Below, piece after piece: positions 4,524 through 58,701 of a DNA stretch of 64,000 bases. The position numbers and the translations under genes are program-made. Position 1 is the stretch's first letter; the number at the start of each line of letters is the position of its first letter. The DNA is taken from NCBI RefSeq assembly GCF_023147585.1, contig NZ_JAHXOZ010000002.1:134415-198414 (forward strand). The letters run 5' to 3'. The notes beneath the pieces are model-generated. The model saw nothing but the letters and a program-made list of their open reading frames with translations. It searched no databases and was not told the DNA's origin. The DNA is from Micrococcus sp. EYE_212 (GTDB taxonomy: Bacteria; Actinomycetota; Actinomycetes; Actinomycetales; Micrococcaceae).

Positions 4524-4820
4524 AACGGCGGGGGTGCTCGGCCCCGCGGAGGGGGGATTGGGGACCGAGGAAGCCCGCCACCATGGCCCCTCAAAAACGG
4601 GATCGGGGCCATGGAGTCTCAGGAATGATCCGACCCTGGGGCCTGACCATCACTGAACTGTAGCCCCACTCTTGCGGGGGACGCAACGTTGTGTTCCGTA
4701 TGTGAGAGAGCTGACGGCGGGCCGGGAGAAGTGCGGCGCATCGGGATCCGCGGCCTGTGGATGAGCGGGTGCGCGCCAGGGAGACGGCCCTACGCTGGGC
4801 CGGGGAGGGGGGTGGTCCGC
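4524..4820. other. Non-coding spacer with a CCATGGCCCC palindrome
   Basis: The gap between phoH2 and the prepilin peptidase gene is about 350 nt including the terminator. No convincing gene was found. It contains an inverted repeat, 4581-4590 against 4605-4614, around a relatively A-rich 14-nt loop. A TACGCT hexamer at 4791-4796 is a plausible -10 element for the next gene. Nothing else stands out. Confidence 0.5.
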
Positions 4821-42359: not shown

Positions 42360-42508
42360 CGAGGTCTCCCATTCGGCAGCGGGGCGAAGGTCACGGCGAG
42401 CGACCGCCTCCCTCCGGCACGGGCCCGAGAGGCGAGTCCAGTCTACGGAGTGCCTGCGGGGCCCGGGGCCGGCGCCCGCTGGCCGCCGGCCGCCGACGCC
42501 CCGCCGCC

Positions 42509-46494: not shown

Positions 46495-48734
46495 TCATCG
46501 AACGCAGGCTCACCCCCTATCTCGTCTTCCCCGAGGACTCGCTCCTGGCCGCCCTGCAGAAGATGACCGACAACCGCGAGCGCACCGTGTTCGTGGTGGA
46601 CTCCCACGGCTTCCTCGTCGGCTCGCTGACGGACGGGGACGTGCGCCGCTGGCTGGTGGCGCGGCCGGAGGCGTCGCTGGACGTGGCCGCGGCCGACGTC
46701 GCCCATCGCGACCCGGCGACGGCGCCCCTGGGCGCCTCCCCGGCCGAGATGCGCGAGGCCCTGCCCACCGGGGCGCTGCACCTGCCGCTGTTGGACGAGC
46801 GCGGCCGCCTGACGGCCCTGGCGATCAACCGGGAGGCGGAGCTGCGGATCGGCGGGCACCGGATCGGGGAGGGCCACCCGGCGTTCCTGATCGCGGAGAT
46901 CGGCAACAACCATCAGGGCGATGTGGACCTGGCCCGCCGTCTCGTGGACCTGGCCGTCGTGGCGGGCGCGGACGCCGTGAAGTTCCAGCTGCGGGACATG
47001 GACGCCCTGTACCGGCAGTCCGGTGCGGCCACCGCCGGTGAGGACCTGGGGGCCCAGCGCACCCTGGACGAGCTGGCCAAGTTCTCGCTCTCCGCCGAGG
47101 ACATGGTGCGGGTGTTCGACCACGTCCGGGACGCCGGTGTCGCCCTGATGTGCACCCCGTGGGACGCCCCGTCCATGCGGGTGCTGCGCGAGTACCCGGT
47201 GGACGGCGTGAAGATCGCCTCGGCGGACCTGACGAACCACGGTCTGCTGCGGGACGCGGCCGCCTCCGGCCTGCCGATGGTGCTCTCCACCGGCATGTCC
47301 CGGGAGGAGGAGATCCGCGAGGCGGCGGCCCTGGTGCGCTCCTCCGGCGTCCCCTTCGCGATGCTGCACGCCCAGTCCACGTACCCCGCCCCCTACAAGG
47401 ACGTGAATCTGGCCTACCTGGACCGGCTCGCGGAGATCGCGCAGACGCCGGTGGGCTACTCGGGCCACGAGCGCGGCTTCCACGTGGCCCTGGCCGCGGT
47501 GGCCCGGGGCGCCGCGATCATCGAGAAGCACTTCACCGTGGACCGCGGGCTCGAGGGCAACGACCACAAGGTCTCCCTGCTGCCGGAGGAGTTCGCGCAG
47601 ATGGTGCGGCAGACCCGGGACATCGAGGAGTCGATCGGCGTCGGGAACGAGCGCGTGGTCTCCACGGGCGAGGCGATGAACCGCATCAACCTGGCCAAGT
47701 CCCTGGTGGCGGCCCGTCCGCTGCGGGCCGGCGCCACGATCACCGCGGACGACGTGACCGTGAAGTCCCCGGGCCGCGGCCTGCAGCCCAACGAGCTGCC
47801 GCGCCTGGTCGGCCGCACGTTGCACCGCGAGATGGCCGAGGGCGACTTCTTCTTCGCCGGCGACCTCACGGACACGGTGCCCACCGGGCGCCAGTTTCAG
47901 TTCCGGCGCCCCTGGGGCCTACCGGTGCGCTATCACGACGTCGCGGCGCTGACGAAGGACTGCACCCCGGACTTCCTGGAGTTCCACTTCTCCTACAAGG
48001 ACCTCGAGATCGACATCGACTCGGTGTTCACCGAGCCCATGCCGATGGGCTTCACCACCCACCTGCCGGACATCTTCTCCGGCGACTTCCTCGTGGACCT
48101 GGCCAGCGACGACGACGCCGTGTGGGAGCGCTCGATCGTCGAGGTGCAGCGCACGATCGACATCACCCGGGACCTGAAGCGCTGGTTCCCGTCCGAGGAG
48201 GAGCCCATCATGGTCATCACCATGGGCGGGTTCACCCTGGACCGGCACATCCGCCCGGAGGAGCGGCTGCCGAAGTACGAGCGCATCGCCGAGGCCGTGA
48301 AGCGCCTGGACACCTCCGGCATCCGGATCGCCGCGCAGACGCTGCCGCCGTTCCCATGGTTGATGGGCGGTCAGCAGTACCACAACCTCTTCATGGACCC
48401 GGACGACACCGTGGCGTTCGTGGAGGCCACGGGGGTGCCCCTGTGCTTGGACATCTCCCACTCCAAGCTCTCGGCCACGTTCCTGGGGATCCCCTTCTCG
48501 GAGATGGTGGAGAAGCTGACCCCGCACACCATCCACCTGCACCTCGTGGACGCCACCGGTGTGGACGGGGAGGGGCCGCAGATCGGAGAGGGCGACGTCG
48601 ACTGGCCCGTGCTGTGCGAGCAGCTGGACCGCCTGGCGCCCGGGGTGAGCTTCATCCCGGAGATCTGGCAGGGCCACATCAACAACGGCGAGGGCTTCTG
48701 GACGGCCCTGGACCGCCTGGAGCAGTGGCTGTGA
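46491..48734 (+). CDS. neuB: CBS - NeuB synthase - SAF - TIM-barrel isomerase fusion
   Basis: A 747-residue multidomain protein. Residues 1-115 form two CBS-like repeats (LVGSLTDGDVRRWL). Residues 120-390 are a nonulosonic acid synthase with AEIGNNHQGD, KFQLRDMDALY, CTPWDAPSM, STGMSREEE and EKHFTVDR. Residues 400-460 are a SAF domain (LRAGATITADDVTVKSPG). Residues 478-747 look like a xylose-isomerase-type TIM barrel with CLDISHSKL, HLHLVDA and EIWQGH. The last domain could supply an epimerase/isomerase step; no separate NeuC is in view. GTGA overlaps join it to neuA and the next gene. Confidence 0.88.
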   Translation: MIIERRLTPYLVFPEDSLLAALQKMTDNRERTVFVVDSHGFLVGSLTDGDVRRWLVARPEASLDVAAADVAHRDPATAPLGASPAEMREALPTGALHLPLLDERGRLTALAINREAELRIGGHRIGEGHPAFLIAEIGNNHQGDVDLARRLVDLAVVAGADAVKFQLRDMDALYRQSGAATAGEDLGAQRTLDELAKFSLSAEDMVRVFDHVRDAGVALMCTPWDAPSMRVLREYPVDGVKIASADLTNHGLLRDAAASGLPMVLSTGMSREEEIREAAALVRSSGVPFAMLHAQSTYPAPYKDVNLAYLDRLAEIAQTPVGYSGHERGFHVALAAVARGAAIIEKHFTVDRGLEGNDHKVSLLPEEFAQMVRQTRDIEESIGVGNERVVSTGEAMNRINLAKSLVAARPLRAGATITADDVTVKSPGRGLQPNELPRLVGRTLHREMAEGDFFFAGDLTDTVPTGRQFQFRRPWGLPVRYHDVAALTKDCTPDFLEFHFSYKDLEIDIDSVFTEPMPMGFTTHLPDIFSGDFLVDLASDDDAVWERSIVEVQRTIDITRDLKRWFPSEEEPIMVITMGGFTLDRHIRPEERLPKYERIAEAVKRLDTSGIRIAAQTLPPFPWLMGGQQYHNLFMDPDDTVAFVEATGVPLCLDISHSKLSATFLGIPFSEMVEKLTPHTIHLHLVDATGVDGEGPQIGEGDVDWPVLCEQLDRLAPGVSFIPEIWQGHINNGEGFWTALDRLEQWL

Positions 48735-49864
48735 TCCCGGAGGCGGCGACGACCACCCCGGCCCCGCTGACGCTCTGGGTGGTGCCCGTCGCCGACCTCG
48801 GCGGCGTGGCCCGGCACGTCCTCGACGTCGCACGCGTCGGCCTGCCCGGCCTGCGGCTGGGGGTGCTCTGCCCCGAGGGGCCGCTCGCCGAGCGCCTGCG
48901 CGAGCAGGGCGCGGCGGTGTTCACGGGGGACGTCGGGCCCGACGCCGGCCTGGCCGCCTCGGTGCGCACGCTCCGCACGGCGGTGCGCACCCTGCGCCCG
49001 GCCGCGGTCCACACGCACCTGGCCTACGCCGACCTCGCGGCCTTCACGGCGCTGGGCGCGGGGCGGGCCCTGCGGCGGGCCGGTGCGCCGGCGCTGCTCA
49101 GCACCGAGCACGGGATCGCCCCGGACGACGGGCTGTACAACCGCGCCGCGGCGGCCCGGGTGAAGAACGCCGCGCACCGCGCCCGGCTGCGCGGCACGGA
49201 CCTCGTGATCGCGGTGGCGCAGTCCACCGCGGACGTGCTGCGCCGCAAATGGGGCGCGGGGGCGCCCCTCACCGTGGTGCGCAACGGCGTGGACGGGCCC
49301 GCGGTGCGCGCCGCGGCCGCGGGGCAGCGGCGCGCACCGGGGGAGGGGTTGCGGATCCTCTCCCTGTCCCGGCTGGCCCCCGAGAAGAACCTCGACCGGC
49401 TGATCGCCGCACTGCCCGCCCTGCTGGAGCGCGACCCCGGGGCGCGGTTGACGTTGGCCGGCACCGGGCCGCTCGCGGCGGCGCTGCGTGCGCAGGCCGA
49501 GGACCTCGGCGTCGCGGATGCGGTCGACCTGCCCGGCTTCGTGGAGCCGTGGGGCACCATGGCCGAGCACGACGTGCTGGTGCAGCTCTCCTCTTGGGAG
49601 AACCTCAGCTACACCCTGCTCGACGCCGCGGCCGCCGGCCTGCCCGCCGTCGCCACGGATGTGGGCGGCAACGGAGAGATCCTGCCGCCTGAGCGCCTGG
49701 TCCACGAGACCACCCCGGCGGCCATCGCTGACGCCGTCGTGCGTGCCGCGGCCGACGGCCCGGGCGAGGTGCGCGTGGGCGACGTGGAGACCATGGCTCG
49801 GGCCACCGCCGAGGCGACCCTCGAGGTGCTCGGGCGCCGGGCGGGGAAGGGCGGGCACCGATGA
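48731..49864 (+). CDS. Family 4 glycosyltransferase
   Basis: A 377-residue GT-B retaining enzyme. The N-terminal domain has DLGGVARHVLDVARVG and HTHLAYADLAAF; the C-terminal domain has ILSLSRLAPEKNLDRLIAALP, TLAGTGPL and the EX7E region SSWENLSYTLLDAAAAGLPAVATDVGGNGEIL. The GTG overlaps the NeuB-fusion stop; its stop overlaps the acyltransferase start. Specificity unknown. Confidence 0.85.
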   Translation: MIPEAATTTPAPLTLWVVPVADLGGVARHVLDVARVGLPGLRLGVLCPEGPLAERLREQGAAVFTGDVGPDAGLAASVRTLRTAVRTLRPAAVHTHLAYADLAAFTALGAGRALRRAGAPALLSTEHGIAPDDGLYNRAAAARVKNAAHRARLRGTDLVIAVAQSTADVLRRKWGAGAPLTVVRNGVDGPAVRAAAAGQRRAPGEGLRILSLSRLAPEKNLDRLIAALPALLERDPGARLTLAGTGPLAAALRAQAEDLGVADAVDLPGFVEPWGTMAEHDVLVQLSSWENLSYTLLDAAAAGLPAVATDVGGNGEILPPERLVHETTPAAIADAVVRAAADGPGEVRVGDVETMARATAEATLEVLGRRAGKGGHR

Positions 49865-51005
49865 CCGCGGCAAGCCCGAACGAGCCGGGATCGGCGTCGG
49901 TGGCCCCGGCCGAGAAGCGAGTGCCGGGGCCCCGGTTCCGGGAGCTGGACGGCCTTCGGGGGATCGCGGCGCTGGCCGTGGTGTTCTCGCACTTCGGCGG
50001 GACGCACAATTTCCACTACCGCGACGATCCCCCGGCTTTTCATGACTTCGTCTGGGGTGGCACGGGGGTCCAGCTGTTTTTTTTATCAGCGGTTTCGTGA
50101 TCCTCATGACCGCGCGCCGTGCCTCGCGTCCCAGCGATTTCGTCATCTCCCGAGTGGCGCGGCTGTACCCGCCGTACTGGCTCTCGCTTGCATTCGCCGT
50201 GGTGATCCTCGCCCTCGTTCAGGTGCCGGGGTACTCGCTGAGTCCGGGGCAGATCTTCGTCAATCTCACGATGGTCCAACGATGGTTGCTGGTCGACGAT
50301 GTGGTCGACGTCTACTGGACCCTGGCGGTCGAGATGCAGTTCTACGCACTTGTCTTGACCCTCCTCATCCTCAGCCGGTGTCGCCTGTCGGACCGTCTGG
50401 TCCTGTGGGCATGCCTGGGTTGGTCTGTGTTGTCCTGGACGGTGGTGGCTGTGACTTCACAGGCCGCGGCGCCACGCCCAGCGGGGGACCCCACGTGGGT
50501 CAAACTCGTCAACAACATCACTGTTGCCGAGTATGCGCCCATGTTCGTCCTGGGCATGGTGGTGTTCCTGGCACGGGAGACGGGTCGCCACCGACGAGCG
50601 GTGGCCGCAGCCTATGCATCGGCTGTCGTGAGCCCCTTCGTCTTGCGCGACATGACCCTTGGTCTCTGGGTGCTGGCAGCGGCGACCCTGTTCACTGCTG
50701 TGGCCCTCCGACGAAGGACGTGGCTCCTCACAACGCCGCCCTTCCAGTTCTACGGCCGGATCAGCTACTCCCTGTACATCATCCACGTCATTCCCGGTTA
50801 TCTGGTCATCCATGCTCTATGGCCATACGTAGGCCGGAACATGGCCATGCTCGTGGCCTTGGCCGTGGTCTCCGTACTCGCCTGGGCCCTGCAGAGGTAC
50901 GGCGAGGAGCACCTCGGCCGCGCGGCCAAGCGGGGGCTGACCCGCGTCCGCTCCATCATGGACGCGCGGACCGGACATCCCCGATCCCGGGAGCCGGCCC
51001 GATGA
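49861..51005 (+). pseudogene. OafA-type acyltransferase split by a frameshift at T8
   Basis: The first frame (49861-50100) gives the acyltransferase-3 N-terminus RFRELDGLRGIAALAVVFSHFG and stops after LFFLSAVS. The rest (from about 50085 to 51005) continues in another frame as ISGFVILMTARRASRPSDF and eight or nine membrane segments. The break lies in a run of eight Ts (50077-50084); nine would restore LFFFISGFVIL. The bases T TTT TTA at 50079-50085 also form a classic -1 slippery heptamer in the right phase. Pseudogene, phase-variable gene, frameshifted product or sequencing error are all possible. Its likely role is O-acylation of the glycan. Confidence 0.8.
50077..50084 (+). repeat. T8 homopolymer at the acyltransferase frame break
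   Basis: Eight consecutive Ts in a genome otherwise poor in T runs. A one-base gain would join the two frames. Confidence 0.85.
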
Positions 51006-52039
51006 ACGGACGCATCTGGATCCTGGCGAACCAGGGTGAGGTGGGCGGCGGCGAGGTGATGCTGCACCACCTCGCCACGGCCCTGCGCGAGATCGGGCGG
51101 GACGTGGGCGTCGTGGCCCCGGCGCACCCGGCCGAGACCGCCGATCGCCTGGCCGCGGACGGCTTCGACGTGGTCCGACTGGGTGGGCCCGGACGCCTGG
51201 GGTATCTGCGCGCTCTCCGCGCCTGGGACCGTGGCCGAGGCGGGGACGACGTCGCGTGGTGCAACGGGCTGCTGCCGGCGACGGCGCTGGCCGGTCGGCC
51301 GCGCCGGATCGTGCACCTGCACCAGGTGCCCGAGAAGCCGCTTCTGCGCGTGTTCTCCGCCCTGGCGCGTCCCGGTGCGCTCGCGGTCCTCGTGCCCTCC
51401 CGATTCGCGGCGGACCGCATCCGCGGGGCCCGCGTGCTCCACAACTGGGTCCCGGCCCCGACGGCACCGCAGACAGGGCGGGCCCGCGGTGCCGATGAGC
51501 CGGTGACCGTGGGATTCCTCGGCCGGCTGTCCGAGGACAAGGGCATCGTGACCCTGCTGGAGGCCGCCGCGCTGCTGCGGAAGACCGACCCGGGTGCTTT
51601 CGTGTTCCGCGTCGCGGGGGAGAGCCGGTTCGTGGCGGATGACGAGGCCGAGCGGCTCGCCACCGCCCTGAAGACGGCGGGCGAGGACGTCCAGGTGCTC
51701 GGCTGGCAGGACACCGCCGAGTTCCTGGCCACCGTGGACGTGCTGGCCGTACCGTCTCATGTGGCGGAGTCATTCGGCCTGGTGACGGCCGAGGCGATGG
51801 CCGCGGGCGTTCCGGTGGTGGCTTCCGATGCGGGGGCCGTTCCCGAGGTGGTCGGCAGCGGGCACCCCTTCGTTGTTCCGCAGCGGGACGCTGCCGCGCT
51901 CGCGGACTGCCTGCGGGCCGTGCGCGCGGTCGATCTGGGGGCGGTGGCCCATTCCCAGCGGCGCCGCTGGGAGTCGCTGTTCTCACCTGAGGCCGGCCGC
52001 GCCGCCGTCGCCGAGCTCCTGGATGACCTGTCCCTATGA
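51002..52039 (+). CDS. Family 4 glycosyltransferase
   Basis: A 345-residue GT-B enzyme: WILANQGEVGGGEVMLHHLATAL at the N-terminus, then TVGFLGRLSEDKGIVTLLEAAALL and PSHVAESFGLVTAEAMAAGVPVVASDAGAVPEVV. The ATG overlaps the acyltransferase stop as ATGA, so translation of this gene would normally depend on ribosomes finishing that broken gene. Specificity unknown. Confidence 0.85.
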   Translation: MNGRIWILANQGEVGGGEVMLHHLATALREIGRDVGVVAPAHPAETADRLAADGFDVVRLGGPGRLGYLRALRAWDRGRGGDDVAWCNGLLPATALAGRPRRIVHLHQVPEKPLLRVFSALARPGALAVLVPSRFAADRIRGARVLHNWVPAPTAPQTGRARGADEPVTVGFLGRLSEDKGIVTLLEAAALLRKTDPGAFVFRVAGESRFVADDEAERLATALKTAGEDVQVLGWQDTAEFLATVDVLAVPSHVAESFGLVTAEAMAAGVPVVASDAGAVPEVVGSGHPFVVPQRDAAALADCLRAVRAVDLGAVAHSQRRRWESLFSPEAGRAAVAELLDDLSL

Positions 52040-52055: not shown

Positions 52056-53018
52056 ATGACCGAGACACCCCTGACCCCCGAGGCCAGCGTGATCGTCCCC
52101 AGCCGGGGCGGAGCCCAGCGGCTGCCGCGCCTGATCGGCGCGCTCGCCGCGCAGGAGGACGCCCCGCCGTTCGAGGTCCACGTGGTCGTGGACGGGGACG
52201 TGGACGGGTCGGAAGCGGTGCTCGCCAAGTTGGCCGCGGAACATCCGGGCCTGGACCTGAGCTGGACCGTCTTCCCCGAGAACCGCGGACGGGTCGCCGC
52301 GCTCAACGCAGGTGCCGACGCGACGTCCGGCCGCATCCTCATCCGGGCCGACGACGACTTGGAGCCCGGACCTCACTACATCCGGGACCACGTGGCCGCC
52401 CACTCGGGCGGGCCCGGCGGAGCGATCGGGCTTTACTTGAACGTCCTGGAGCCCACCCCGTATCAGCGCGCCTACGGTGACGCTCAGGACGTCCTGCACC
52501 GCGAACACGCGTATGCGCTGCCGGCGGATCAGCAGTGGCGGCACTGGGCCGGCAACGTGTCCGTCCCCCGTGCCCTGCACCAGCAGAGCGGCGGCTACGA
52601 CCCGGACTACCGACAGTACGGGTGGGAGGACATCGACTACGGCTACCGGCTGCACGCGGCAGGCTATCCCGTGGTGATCCGCCCCGAGCTGGAGACGCGG
52701 CACCACGCCGCCGCCGTGACGACGCACTCGAAGGCGGTGCGGGCCTTGCACGGCACGGCCGCGCGGAACCTGTTCGTGAGCAAGCACGGGGCAGCACCGC
52801 TCGGCACCATCGGTGCTCCGCGAGGCGTGTGGGGTGCTGCCGTGCGCCTGGTGGCGTTGGGCACCACCGAAGCCACGCTCACGCGCTCCAGTGCGTTGAT
52901 CGACGCCGTCGCGGACCACCTGCCCCGGGGGCTCGCCCGTCGACTCATCGCCCTCCAGGTGGAGGGTGCCGCCGAGGCCGGACGGGCCCACCCCCACCGC
53001 GCGCAACGGGCCATCTGA
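52056..53018 (+). CDS. Family 2 glycosyltransferase
   Basis: A 320-residue GT-A protein with ASVIVPSRGGAQRLPRLIGAL, ENRGRVAALNAGADATSGRILIRADDDLEPG (metal site) and WAGNVSVPRALHQQSGGYDPDYRQYGWEDIDYGYRL, the acceptor-side signature of galactosyltransferase-like GT2 enzymes. It ends with an amphipathic Arg/Ala-rich tail. GCGGAGGACTC precedes the ATG; 16 nt separate it from the previous gene. Confidence 0.85.
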   Translation: MTETPLTPEASVIVPSRGGAQRLPRLIGALAAQEDAPPFEVHVVVDGDVDGSEAVLAKLAAEHPGLDLSWTVFPENRGRVAALNAGADATSGRILIRADDDLEPGPHYIRDHVAAHSGGPGGAIGLYLNVLEPTPYQRAYGDAQDVLHREHAYALPADQQWRHWAGNVSVPRALHQQSGGYDPDYRQYGWEDIDYGYRLHAAGYPVVIRPELETRHHAAAVTTHSKAVRALHGTAARNLFVSKHGAAPLGTIGAPRGVWGAAVRLVALGTTEATLTRSSALIDAVADHLPRGLARRLIALQVEGAAEAGRAHPHRAQRAI

Positions 53019-53027
53019 GGGGACACG

Positions 53028-54185
53028 ATGTCGGAACAGACCCCCGCAAAGATCGCCATCGCCCACGACTACCTCACCCAGAAGGGCGGGGCGGAACGGG
53101 TGGTGCTCGCCCTGCACCGGATGTGGCCGGACGCGCCCATCTACACGACGTTCTACGACCCCGAGGGAACCTTCCCGGAGTTCAAGGACGCGCACATCAT
53201 CACCTCACCCCTGAACCGGGTGGGGCTCCTGCGGACGGACCCGCGGAGAGCACTGCCGCTGCTGCCCCTGGCCTCCTCGCTGATGCACGTGAAGGAACCG
53301 GTCGCCGTCGTCTCAACCTCCGGCTGGGCGCACGGATTCCGCTACGACGGCGCCACGCTCGTCTACTGCCACACGCCCGCGCGCTGGGTGTACCTGCTGG
53401 ACGACTACCTGGGCGAGGGAGGTCGGAACAGCATCAAGGGCCGGATCGCCCGCGTCCTGCGCCCGGGTCTGCGCGGGTGGGACCGCGCGGCCGTCCGGCG
53501 CCGATCACGCTACGTGGCCAACTCGACCGTGGTGAAGCGTCGCATCGAGGACGTCTACGGGATGAGGGAGGTGCCGATCGTCTTCCCCCCGCATTCGGTG
53601 GACGTGGACGGGCCGCAGGAGGCCATTCCCGGGGCTGAACGGATCGCAGAGGAAGGCTACCTGCTCTCGGTGGCCCGGCTCATGCCCTACAAGCATGTGG
53701 ACGTGACGATCCAGGCCGCTGAACGGACCGGGCAGAACCTGCTGGTGATCGGCAAAGGGCCGGAGGAGGCCCGTCTGAAGGAGATGGCGGGGCCAAATGT
53801 GGTCTTCGGCCAGGATCTCAGCGACGCCCAGCTGCGCTGGGCCTACGCCCACGCCACGGCACTCGTGGCGGCCAGCCATGAGGACTTCGGCATCACCCCG
53901 CTGGAGGCGAGTGCGTGGGGCGTGCCGACGGTGGCGTTGCGTGCAGGCGGCTACCTGGACACGATCGCGGAGGGTGTGAACGGGACATTCGTGGCGGGAC
54001 CCCGAGTGGACGCGGTGGCGGAGGGGGTGAGGAGGGTCCGGGCAGCCGAGTGGGATCGCCTGGCCATGCGTAGGCATGCGGGGAGGTTCTCCGAGCAGGA
54101 GTTCGCGGCAGCCATCCTGGAGGAGATCGAGTTCCTCGGTTCGGGGAGTCCTCTGCCGATGAACCGCGCAGGGAATTGGTCTTAA
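53028..54185 (+). CDS. Family 4 glycosyltransferase
   Basis: Last gene of the tight operon, nine nt after the previous stop. A 385-residue protein of the WbaZ/mannosyltransferase-like GT4 type: AHDYLTQKGGAERVVLALHRMWPDAPIYTTFYDP at the start, YCHTPARWVYLLDDYLG, SVARLMPYKHVDVTIQAAE and ASHEDFGITPLEASAWGVPTVALRAGGYLDTI. Such enzymes often add mannose from GDP-mannose, but this is not proven here. Confidence 0.88.
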   Translation: MSEQTPAKIAIAHDYLTQKGGAERVVLALHRMWPDAPIYTTFYDPEGTFPEFKDAHIITSPLNRVGLLRTDPRRALPLLPLASSLMHVKEPVAVVSTSGWAHGFRYDGATLVYCHTPARWVYLLDDYLGEGGRNSIKGRIARVLRPGLRGWDRAAVRRRSRYVANSTVVKRRIEDVYGMREVPIVFPPHSVDVDGPQEAIPGAERIAEEGYLLSVARLMPYKHVDVTIQAAERTGQNLLVIGKGPEEARLKEMAGPNVVFGQDLSDAQLRWAYAHATALVAASHEDFGITPLEASAWGVPTVALRAGGYLDTIAEGVNGTFVAGPRVDAVAEGVRRVRAAEWDRLAMRRHAGRFSEQEFAAAILEEIEFLGSGSPLPMNRAGNWS

Positions 54186-54188
54186 GCT
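54183..54188 (+). promoter_or_regulatory. -10 element for leaderless GT2 gene
   Basis: TAAGCT seven nt before ATG 54196, overlapping the previous gene's stop codon. It would give this gene its own promoter. Confidence 0.45.
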
Positions 54189-54195
54189 GATGCCC

Positions 54196-54984
54196 ATGCG
54201 CGCCCCCGGCACCGGCCGATTCTCGGTCATCATCCCCACGCTCCAACGGTCGGACGACCTGGACGCGCTGGTCCGTCAGTGTGCGGAGCACGACGACGTC
54301 CTTGAAGTGCTCGTGATCAACAACGCGCCCTCCCCTCTCAGCTGGCCCTCGCCGAAAGTGCGCGTCTTCCAGCAGGAGGAGAACATCTTCGTGAACCCGG
54401 CATGGAATCTGGGGGCCGCGGCGGCTCAGGGCGAGTACCTGGCCATCGTCAACGACGACGTGCTGTTCAGCGACGACGTCTTCCCCTACGCGGCCCGGCT
54501 GTTGGCCGACGGGAATGTCGGATTGGTGGAACCTTCTCCACGTGCCTTCGGCCGTTTCGCCGGTGGTCGGATCAGACACCGGCTGGCATCGGACTACTCC
54601 CTGCGCCGTGGGTTCGGCACCTGCATGATGCTCCGTCGGGAGGACTATGTGCCGATCCCGGAGAGCATCAAGGTGTGGGGCGGCGATTCGTGGCTCCTGC
54701 TCGTCCAGAAGTACCCGAGTGTCGAGCTTCTGGGGCCACGGTTCCGCACCGAGATGTCCACGACCGCACGATCGCCTGAATTCCAAGCTTTCCGGCGGCA
54801 GGAAGCTGAGGAATCCTTCCGGATCCTGGCTCCGTTGGTCGGAACGCGTCAGTGGCATGCCGCTGCAGGGCGCCTGGCTCGCCGACACGCGCGCGAGGCC
54901 GAGGTCGTCGGCAAGGCCTCTCGGGCGGTGGATCTCATCGGACGTCTGCGTCATGGCCGGGGCTCTTCCACAGTGAGACGCTGA
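54196..54984 (+). CDS. Family 2 glycosyltransferase, paralogue of the broken gene at 62908
   Basis: A 262-residue GT-A protein with FSVIIPTLQRSDDLDALV, VLVINNAPSPLSW, the shared stretch ENIFVNPAWNLGA and metal-site VNDDVLF (about 86-91). The same order of motifs, including LRREDYVPIP and WGGDSWLL, recurs in the frameshifted gene at 62908-63622. ATG 54196 is seven nt after TAAGCT; ATG 54190 lies next to that hexamer. The product lacks membrane segments. Specificity unknown. Confidence 0.75.
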   Translation: MRAPGTGRFSVIIPTLQRSDDLDALVRQCAEHDDVLEVLVINNAPSPLSWPSPKVRVFQQEENIFVNPAWNLGAAAAQGEYLAIVNDDVLFSDDVFPYAARLLADGNVGLVEPSPRAFGRFAGGRIRHRLASDYSLRRGFGTCMMLRREDYVPIPESIKVWGGDSWLLLVQKYPSVELLGPRFRTEMSTTARSPEFQAFRRQEAEESFRILAPLVGTRQWHAAAGRLARRHAREAEVVGKASRAVDLIGRLRHGRGSSTVRR

Positions 54985-55084
54985 CAGCACGCGCCGAGCC
55001 CCTGCGTGCCCCACCCCCGGCTCTGGCTCGAGGAGTTGCCACGTGACGGCCGTGCGCCGTCCCCGACCTGAGGAGCACCCCCGA

Positions 55085-56236
55085 ATGATCTCAACACCAC
55101 GAGGTGGAGCACCCCTCACCGTTGCGGTGGCCTACCCCGGAGACCCGACTGATCCGCGCCACTGGTCCGGGACCCCTGCCGGGCTTGTGGCAGGACTCCG
55201 TGCTGCCGACGTCGATGTCCGCCCGGTGGACCTCACGCCTCCGGCGGCTGTGGCGCGGGTGTGGACGCGGGCCGTGGCTGGCCGGCTCCGCCCATCGCCA
55301 GAGCACCTGCTCGGGGTGACCCGGCAGGGCGCTCCGTATGCGCAGTTGGTGAGTGCCGTCGCTCGCCTGCGCATCCCCCGGGACGTCCATGCGGTGCTGC
55401 AGATCGGCACGGGTTACCGCGTGGAGCATCCCGTGGTGGCGACCTTCGAGGACATGACGGTGGCCCAGGCGCGGCGCCACCGATGGGGCCCGTTCGCATC
55501 TCTGCCAGCCCGCGTCGCCGAAGGGCGTGAGAGGCTGCAGCGGCGGGCATATGAGGACGCTGCTGTGTGCTTCATGGCCACGCGCTGGTCCGCACGCTCA
55601 GTGGTGGAGGACTACGGTATCGACCCGGCGAAGGTCTGTGCGACGGGACTTGGCATCAACCGTGCGGCGCCTGCCCCGTCGGAGCGGAACTGGCAGACGC
55701 CGACCTTCCTCTTCGTCGGCAACGACTGGGCGCGCAAGAATGGTGAGATGGTCCTCCGAGCCTTCCGGGCGGTGCGCCGTCTTCACCCGCAGGCTCGGCT
55801 CCACCTGGTCGGCCACGGGATTCCAGGAGTCCAAGAGCCCGGCGTCCGGGTCCACGGGCCGATGCCGATGGGAGACCCGGCGGCGCAGGCCCGGCTTGCC
55901 GCCCTCTTCGGGCAGTCCACCTGCCTCGTGGTCCCCAGCCGTCTCGAACCGGCTGGCATCGTCTACGCCGAGGCCGCCAGTGCAGGGATGCCCTCGATCG
56001 GATCCACCGTCGGCGGTGCCGCAGACATGATCGGGGGAGGGGGAGAAGTCGTGGATCCCGAGGACGCCGGTGCCCTCACCGCGGCGATGCTGAGGATGGC
56101 GGATCCCGCGGCGGCCCGAGCGGCGGGAGAGCGCGCCCAGGCTCATGCACGCACTCTCACATGGGCCGCGGTGGGCGAGGTGGTCGCAGACCGGCTCCGG
56201 TTGGAGGTCAGCGGCACGCGGGCAGTCGTTCGATGA
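55085..56236 (+). CDS. Family 4 glycosyltransferase
   Basis: A 383-residue GT-B protein: VAVAYPGDPTDPRHWSGTPAGL at the N-terminus, TFEDMTVAQARRHRWGPF, FLFVGNDWARKNGEMVLRAFRAVR, LVVPSRLEPAGIVYAEAASAGMPSIGSTVGG. ATG 55085 has GAGGAG nine nt upstream; GTG 55043 has an equally good GAGGAG seven nt upstream and would add 14 residues, so the start is uncertain. Its 3' end overlaps the convergent membrane protein gene by 29 bp. Confidence 0.8.
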   Translation: MISTPRGGAPLTVAVAYPGDPTDPRHWSGTPAGLVAGLRAADVDVRPVDLTPPAAVARVWTRAVAGRLRPSPEHLLGVTRQGAPYAQLVSAVARLRIPRDVHAVLQIGTGYRVEHPVVATFEDMTVAQARRHRWGPFASLPARVAEGRERLQRRAYEDAAVCFMATRWSARSVVEDYGIDPAKVCATGLGINRAAPAPSERNWQTPTFLFVGNDWARKNGEMVLRAFRAVRRLHPQARLHLVGHGIPGVQEPGVRVHGPMPMGDPAAQARLAALFGQSTCLVVPSRLEPAGIVYAEAASAGMPSIGSTVGGAADMIGGGGEVVDPEDAGALTAAMLRMADPAAARAAGERAQAHARTLTWAAVGEVVADRLRLEVSGTRAVVR

Positions 56237-57824
56237 GAACCTGGTCGCGGCCCGCCACGAGGTAGCGGGAATAGGGGACGGAGGTGACGTCGGAGGTCTC
56301 TCCGGTGGGCGTGGCGAGCGATACGAGCGCACATTGCCGCGAATCCTCGAAGAGGGTCCAGCCGCCGAGTGCCTCGTCTCGAACCGGCTGCGGGGCCACA
56401 GCGGAGGACGAGTGGTAGCCGACCCAGGCGAAACCGGCGTCGACGTCCCTCGGATCCATACCCTCGGCCACGAGGGATTCTGCCGCACGCCACGCCGCGC
56501 CCGTGCTGGTCCAGGTGTGGAGGGCGATGGCCGCTGAACCCAGACTCACGAAGGCCAGGGCGCTGACTGCCAGGAGGGTCCGCACCCGGTCCAGGCGCAC
56601 TCCACGCAGTGCCAGGATCGCCAGGGGTGCGATCACCGGATAGAAATAGCGTTCGAAGATCCCTTGACCGCTCAACGTCTGAAGGAAGGTCCCGCCCAGG
56701 TACAGGGCGATGAAGAGGACCAGCAGTGCCGTCTGGCCATGACCCCAGGTCATGCGCCCACGTCCCACCCGCCGTGACAGGAGGAGAACGTCACTCGTGC
56801 GCAGGGCGAGGGCCACGAGGGCGACCACCGCCAGGAGGCCAGCGCCCCAGAAATACGCCTGCGGGAGGGTCTCGCGTGTGCCGTAGAACATCGCCAGGTA
56901 GGCGCCGTCAAGGGTGAAGTAGTTGCCCAACAGCATGCCGGGCCCCAGCAGTCCGAGCAGGGCTCCTCCGGCCAAGGCGGCGGCCGCGCCCATGAGGATC
57001 CGAGTCTTCCCGCCAGCCCGACGGAGCGTTCCCAGCAGAACCGGCGAAGAGACGAAGAGAAGTGTCATGGACCCCATAGCGGTGCCGCGCAGGGCGTAGC
57101 CCAGCCCCAGCCCGAGCTGCGGAGGATCGTCCCCCGCCTGGGAGCGGCGCCATACTTCGAAGACTATGACGAGCGTGAGGGCGAGGAAACTGATGAGCGC
57201 GCTCGTTGCGCGACGATCCCTGCGGTATGCCAATCCGGCCGCGAGTACGGCGACGAGTGCGGCCAGGGCCTGCTCGCGGACCGTGACGCCCCATAGTCCG
57301 AATCCGGCAGCCAGCGCCAGATGAAGGGGCCTCCCTGCACTGATGAACCGTGAGCCGAAGTAGAGGGCCCCGGAGATCCCTGCCATCATCGGCACGTCTG
57401 TCATGTATGACGTGCTCAGAAGCGCGAAGCCGGGTGCTGCGCCCACGGTCGCCGCCACCAGCGCGGCGGCCCGACGCCCGAGGAACTGGCGGGCGAGAGC
57501 GTAGCTGAAGCCCACCACGGCGCTGCCGCACGCCATGACGAACAGGTGCTGTGCCACGATGCTGGCACCGAGGGGCCCGAGCGGTGCCATCATCCCCACC
57601 ATCGCTGCGCGATTGAAGCCGATCAGCTGCAGCGTCCCCGTCTCGGCGAGCGTTGCCGCGATCCGTGAGTGCGCCCACGAGTCGTTGTGGGGGATCCAGA
57701 GGGCGCCGGCGGCGGCAGCGGCGGCGGCCGGGAGGCCGATGGTCAGCACCACGAGGGCGAGGACGATGCCGACGTTGGTCGAGTGCCGGGCGCCGGAGGG
57801 GCGATGGAAGGCAGCGCCGCTCAT
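56208..57824 (-). CDS. GT-C-fold membrane glycosyltransferase-like protein
   Basis: A 538-residue protein with about 11-12 hydrophobic segments and a soluble C-terminal part (about 440-538). The first periplasmic loop has IPHNDSWAHSRI, an acidic motif in the position of the catalytic Asp of GT39/ArnT-like enzymes, and SYMTDVPMMAG lies in a later loop. It could add a sugar from a polyprenyl donor outside the cell. Start is seven nt after the rmlA stop, so it is probably in an rmlA operon. Family assignment is tentative. Confidence 0.6.
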   Translation of the reverse strand: MSGAAFHRPSGARHSTNVGIVLALVVLTIGLPAAAAAAAGALWIPHNDSWAHSRIAATLAETGTLQLIGFNRAAMVGMMAPLGPLGASIVAQHLFVMACGSAVVGFSYALARQFLGRRAAALVAATVGAAPGFALLSTSYMTDVPMMAGISGALYFGSRFISAGRPLHLALAAGFGLWGVTVREQALAALVAVLAAGLAYRRDRRATSALISFLALTLVIVFEVWRRSQAGDDPPQLGLGLGYALRGTAMGSMTLLFVSSPVLLGTLRRAGGKTRILMGAAAALAGGALLGLLGPGMLLGNYFTLDGAYLAMFYGTRETLPQAYFWGAGLLAVVALVALALRTSDVLLLSRRVGRGRMTWGHGQTALLVLFIALYLGGTFLQTLSGQGIFERYFYPVIAPLAILALRGVRLDRVRTLLAVSALAFVSLGSAAIALHTWTSTGAAWRAAESLVAEGMDPRDVDAGFAWVGYHSSSAVAPQPVRDEALGGWTLFEDSRQCALVSLATPTGETSDVTSVPYSRYLVAGRDQVLIERLPACR

Positions 57825-57831
57825 GACCGGC

Positions 57832-58701
57832 TCAGTGATCCGAGTCGAGGAGTTCGAGCAGGTAGGCGCCGTAGCCGGACTTCACCAGTGGGATCGCCCG
57901 TTCCCGGAGCTCGTCGTCAGAGAGGAACCCCTGGCGCCAGGCCACCTCCTCCGGAGCGCTCACCTTGAGGCCCTGGCGGGAGTCGATCGTGCGGATGAAG
58001 TTGGAGGCGTCATTGAGGTCGCGGAACGTGCCGGTGTCCAGCCAGGCGGTGCCTCGGGGGAGCACCTCCACATTGAGGGCTCCCCGCTGGAGGTAGGTGC
58101 GGTTGACGTCGGTGATCTCCAGCTCGCCCCGGCTGGACGGCTTCAGGCTCTTGGCGATCTCCACGACGTCGTTGTCATAGAAGTAGAGGCCGGGGACGGC
58201 GTAGTTGCTCTTGGGCTCTGCGGGCTTCTCCTCGAGGGAGATGGCCTTGCCCGTCCCATCGAACTCGACGACGCCGTAGGCCGTGGGATCGGCAACCCAG
58301 TAGCCGAAGACCGTGGCCCCGTCCACTTCCGTGTGACGCCGAAGTTGCTGGCCCATGCCGGGGCCGTAGAAGATGTTGTCACCAAGGACGAGGGCAACTT
58401 TTTCCGCGCCGATGTGCTTCTCGCCGAGGATGAAGGCCTGGGCCAGGCCATCCGGCGAAGGCTGCTGGACGTAGGTCAAAGAGACGCCGAACTTCGATCC
58501 ATCGCCCAGGAGCCGCTGGAACTGCTCCGTGTCCTGGGGGGTGGTGATGATCAGGATGTCTCGGATGCCCGCCAGGATCAGCGTGGACAAGGGGTAGTAG
58601 ATCATCGGCTTGTCGTACACCGGCACGAGCTGCTTGGAGATGCCGTGGGTGATGGGGTGCAGACGAGAACCGGTGCCTCCGGCCAGGATGATGCCCTTCA
58701 T
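57832..58701 (-). CDS. rmlA: Glucose-1-phosphate thymidylyltransferase
   Basis: Makes dTDP-glucose, the first step to dTDP-rhamnose and related deoxysugars. The 289-residue protein starts [20 protein letters not shown], with [44 protein letters not shown] and [20 protein letters not shown] 58701 is seven nt after TACAGT without a Shine-Dalgarno. It lies on the opposite strand and 5 kb from rmlB; rmlC and rmlD are not in the window. Confidence 0.95.

Follow-up and report, generated by a model that had tools for sequence, protein, structure and literature searches.

A candidate slippage-prone ON/OFF T tract in an AT3 acyltransferase gene of a Micrococcus surface-glycan operon

Why should the reading frame of an otherwise well-preserved acyltransferase gene be broken within a run of eight Ts? 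This question is raised by a gene in the window, the stretch of 64,000 nucleotides from Micrococcus sp. EYE_212 analyzed here. The broken frame could reflect a variable tract, a decaying gene, recoding during transcription or translation, or an error in the sequence. The features that bear on these explanations are as follows (all on the forward strand, except where no strand is assigned).

48731–49864, forward: upstream glycosyltransferase gene (group 1), whose stop overlaps the acyltransferase start; Pfam matches within window positions 47150–49861, start position predicted
49861–51005, forward: AT3 acyltransferase gene, frame-broken at T8; PF01757 in both pieces, intact ortholog in genome G059
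49861–50100, forward: N-terminal open frame of 79 codons plus TGA, carrying R33-X10-H44
50077–50084, forward: T8 tract on the FFxISG motif (T9 in G059)
50079–50085, forward: in-phase T TTT TTA heptamer with the form of a -1 slippery site, read from the sequence
50097–51005, forward: C-terminal open frame, 302 amino acids if read from the GTG overlapping the premature TGA, carrying RxxR; reinitiation there is possible
51002–52039, forward: downstream glycosyltransferase gene (group 1), whose start overlaps the acyltransferase stop; Pfam matches within window positions 50042–52036
49981–51450, no strand assigned: near-identity segment shared with G059, differing by one SNP and the T indel

The split gene, its operon and its T tract

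Frame 0 from the ATG at 49861 reads through ...GVQLFFLSAVS and then meets a TGA at 50098–50100. A second reading frame begins at 50085 with ISGFVIL... and is free of stops until 51005. The first piece matches the PF01757 profile at positions 2–53 (E 5e-8) and the second at positions 54–323 of 326 (E 2e-19). Because these two matches are contiguous, the frame is the only thing missing from this AT3 gene. The initial annotation had described an OafA-type acyltransferase with both halves whole and split at the T8 tract, and the profile matches and reading frames agree with that description. Three AT3 motifs are present in the alignment (A1): R33...H44, F73-F74-F75-I76-S77-G78 and R98xxR101. The T8 tract falls between R33-X10-H44 on its 5′ side and R98xxR101 on its 3′ side. 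Both R/K-X10-H and RxxR, as defined for AT3 proteins, are essential in OafA (PMC7448272). Since T8 parts these two kinds of essential motif, the T8 allele is expected to be OFF, barring partial rescue by slippage. The annotation also expected LFFFISG from any repair of the frame. This holds for a ninth T, whereas a -1 slip yields LFFLISG; each is compatible with the family motif FFxISG.

The gene had also been placed in an operon in which its stop is overlapped by the next start, and ATGA overlaps are indeed found with both adjoining glycosyltransferase genes. Nearby genes encode a cytidylyltransferase, a NeuB-type synthase with CBS and SAF domains, a TIM-barrel isomerase-like domain and several glycosyltransferases. 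This gene content suggests an operon for a nonulosonic-acid-type surface glycan, of which the AT3 enzyme is likely to be a decorating acylase.

The tract itself is exceptional. Across the whole 2.54-Mb genome (40 contigs), the T8 at 50077–50084 is the only A8 or T8 run, and the one other A/T run of at least 7 lies immediately upstream of a 16S rRNA gene. The G+C content of the window is 72%, and T8 did not arise in any of 100 dinucleotide shuffles of it. Moreover, the FFxISG motif is encoded at the tract with TTT codons, which are rare in the genes counted: Core genes use TTT for 2 of 177 Phe residues, six glycan-region genes for 0 of 79 and the acyltransferase gene, with the tract excluded, for 1 of 17. 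At this combined usage (3 of 273, or ∼1%), the tract is unlike what codon bias would produce, and the chance of TTT-TTT-TTT is ∼1e-6 per FFF. The T8 tract is more than chance.

Variation of the tract within the species and the family

The species comparison consists of two genomes, that of the window and G059, which is assembled as one contig. At the orthologous spot, G059 carries T9 and an intact gene for a 381-amino-acid protein that matches PF01757 over positions 3–323 (E 2e-34). Pfam matches to this protein are of AT3 type only, and no fused SGNH domain was seen in it. All residues outside the tract are identical between the G059 protein and the window pieces. Besides the tract, the two genes differ at 11 nucleotides, and all 11 differences are synonymous, an outcome with a neutral chance of about 5e-7. 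These data support the tract-length variation proposed by the initial annotation. Single-locus genetic variation, a criterion for phase variation, is seen here in two genomes of the same species, with T8 breaking the frame and T9 keeping it.

The segment at 49981–51450 differs from G059 by one SNP in 1470 bp plus the T indel, whereas the surrounding 42.6–52.0 kb differs by 3.9%. This segment was thus common to both genomes until very recently, presumably through recombination. Its near identity amid ∼4% divergence argues that the T8/T9 change is young: As judged from these distances, the change is younger than the recent common ancestor of the segment, and the T8 allele is not an old pseudogene. 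Farther downstream in the glycan cluster, at about 52400–58700 of the window, identity to G059 falls sharply to ∼68–79% over much of the stretch, as if the two strains carried different glycan types.

More distant relatives were also compared. The sister species G002 has an acyltransferase gene at the same operon position that reads CTG TTC TTC CTT CTC, without a T run. This gene (L142, L313) is missing a stretch close to its 3′ end that takes in the match to GRISYSLYIIH, likely a separate loss. In two other congeners (G007 and G008), the two flanking glycosyltransferase genes are joined directly and the acyltransferase gene is absent. A scan of the family yielded matches at 1e-30 in 30 of 295 genomes, and only the window genome has a match split at the motif; the match in G133 has an internal TAG. 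Apart from the window gene and the T9 gene of G059, no family gene read at this motif has a T run longer than 5. In-frame runs of T7–T8 occur at the motif in AT-rich genomes (L092, L093, L095 and L119), and therefore FFxISG can host T tracts. No second case broken at the motif was found among the family genes or viral contigs, and the exact tract context had no match in viral contigs. We also considered FFxISG as a general hotspot for T-tract frameshifts. This idea was rejected: At least 120 stretches in viral contigs fit the pattern, none among those listed had an AT3 profile match, and other T runs in the family do not exceed 5.

Explanations for the T8/T9 difference

The explanation that we favor, with a probability of roughly 0.6, is that the T tract is prone to slippage and alternates between ON (T9) and OFF (T8), making it a candidate phase-variation locus for an enzyme that acylates a surface glycan. 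The label “phase variation” is not yet earned, and from sequence comparison the site is best called a candidate contingency locus. Under this explanation, the T9 allele of G059 would be ON and produce the 381-amino-acid enzyme. The T8 allele would be OFF, with translation stopping after 79 codons, the R-X10-H and RxxR motifs parted and activity presumably lost. Slipped-strand mispairing would change T8 to T9 and back, toggling the frame, and the resulting 1-nt loops would probably go unrepaired in a genome without detectable MutS. A MutS_V profile search of this genome gave no match, and the controls were positive. NucS is present; in M. smegmatis, NucS does not repair indels of 1–2 nt (PMC11551767). 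Acylation of the surface glycan would thus be a strain-variable and probably switchable trait. The premature TGA overlaps a GTG (50097–50100) in the downstream frame, and reinitiation there could sustain translation of the operon while also producing the 302-amino-acid fragment. The tract is short, at 8–9 Ts.

A stronger form of this explanation, in which the site is a dedicated contingency locus, is held more tentatively. It proposes that selection has kept TTT-TTT-TTT on the AT3 motif, and that without MutS-type repair acylation is reversibly switchable. If this is true, then the cells could switch their surface glycan reversibly, for example against phages or lectins, and the GTG that overlaps the premature stop could preserve translation of the downstream glycosyltransferase genes while the acyltransferase is OFF.

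A counterpoint to any switch is that the gene is accessory. It is cleanly absent in G007 and G008 and shortened at its 3′ end in G002, and therefore plain loss is tolerated and members of the genus can do without the gene. These observations favor a recent one-way pseudogenization, in which a single T was lost from a tract that is mutation-prone by accident and is neither an evolved nor a reversible switch. Such caution is advised in a review, according to which a mutation-prone homopolymer does not count as phase variation until reversibility and rate are shown (PMC11868660). However, the tract runs contrary to a codon bias under which TTT is about 1% of Phe codons, no second lesion is present in the 918 bp 3′ of the tract, and the same tract is in frame and intact in the same-species genome. 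We consider one-way loss rather unlikely. Alternatively, the true tract lengths could be equal in both genomes, and the difference could be a sequencing or assembly error. Such errors fall most often in homopolymers, and the window genome is a draft of 40 contigs in which intergenic sites carry N10 gaps and poly-G junk. These same defects suggest short reads, which rarely miscall T8. A T9 read from a true T8 would be an insertion, the less usual direction of error for long reads. Furthermore, where the window aligns well with G059, to which this comparison was confined, no other coding indel that breaks a frame was found. The inspected indels at 4807, 14412 and 34125 (1–2 nt in homopolymers) and a 14-bp deletion at 42476 are all noncoding. 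The initial annotation had allowed for an error, which is less likely than feared there; an error at T8 alone is possible but is not the simplest view, and we judge it improbable.

Several other homopolymers were observed in the course of this comparison. The differences at 4807, 14412 and 34125 are changes of 1–2 bases in G/C runs, and the run at 4807 lies just upstream of the start codon of a prepilin-peptidase-like gene. Long G/C runs (up to C43), some adjoining N10 gaps, occur at gene ends in G000 (C17:11436-11501, L182; C23:164562-164654, L183; C34:140260-140331, L184). These runs are probably assembly artifacts (poly-G junk) where terminators are strong, and possibly real variable tracts. 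In G059, a C21 run directly follows a stop codon (L187).

Two further explanations would allow the T8 gene to yield full-length enzyme. The initial annotation had pointed out the T TTT TTA heptamer, which does lie in the zero frame at 50079–50085 in the correct phase (X_XXY_YYZ), and programmed -1 ribosomal frameshifting at U_UUU_UUA would give FFLISG, as found in relatives L042 and L043. A GGGGG precedes the heptamer, ending 10 nt before it, and the fold of the downstream 80 nt has a z of -2.1. However, this fold signal is weak and the strong stem begins about 30 nt downstream, beyond the distance of a classical stimulator; G-rich stretches such as GGGGG are commonplace at 72% G+C. The same-species T9 gene, the sister-species ortholog without a T run and the family genes are all single-frame at the motif. 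Because no frame overlap is conserved in relatives, programmed frameshifting is unsupported, and we regard it as very improbable. Transcriptional slippage, which would add a U to some transcripts and leak full-length enzyme from the OFF allele, fares better but is also quite unlikely. In many bacteria, transcription is prone to slip on nine consecutive A or T residues, and in some, fewer may suffice (PMC1088944), but T8 is under the usual threshold. As a possible source of low-level leakage, it is compatible with the ON/OFF tract that we favor.

Comparison with known systems

No relevant report of phase variation in Micrococcus luteus emerged from a literature search, and no homopolymer phase switch was found for the genus Micrococcus; a search for phase-variable acyltransferases with homopolymeric tracts likewise found none. 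Should the T8/T9 change prove reversible, the genus would provide a clean example of a homopolymer phase switch, and with it a simple system in which to ask how actinomycetes that lack MutS use tract slippage to vary their surface. The locus also makes a case for comparing “pseudogene” calls at homopolymers against a second strain.

The encoded protein resembles OafA/Oac AT3 enzymes in its PF01757 match and its R-X10-H, FFxISG and RxxR motifs, and differs from them in that no fused SGNH domain is seen in its 381 amino acids. The gene also shares with dnaX, mxiE and IS elements, whose expression uses transcriptional slippage or -1 frameshifting, an A/T run or slippery heptamer within the gene. 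Unlike in those genes, the out-of-frame arrangement is not conserved, and the closest relatives are single-frame.

The nearest parallel is oafA of Haemophilus influenzae, a phase-variable AT3 O-acetyltransferase gene for lipooligosaccharide with a GCAA repeat (PMC6479036). There, too, an AT3 gene for surface-glycan modification is switched by a change in repeat length (PMC6479036, PMC9558356). Mixtures of ON and OFF are documented for oafA, whereas the Micrococcus tract is known from two genomes. In contrast to the GCAA tetranucleotide of a Gram-negative organism, the repeat described here is a T8/T9 run on FFxISG in a high-G+C actinomycete that has NucS and no detectable MutS. Homopolymer variants are known in other Actinomycetota, including glpK and espR of M. 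tuberculosis, Cutibacterium acnes and Gardnerella, where indels affect either the reading frame or expression (PMC11898584, PMC4746626, PMC11287997). In C. acnes, 96% of the variable tracts are G/C, whereas the Micrococcus tract is the only A/T tract of at least 8 in its genome and lies in a glycan acyltransferase gene.
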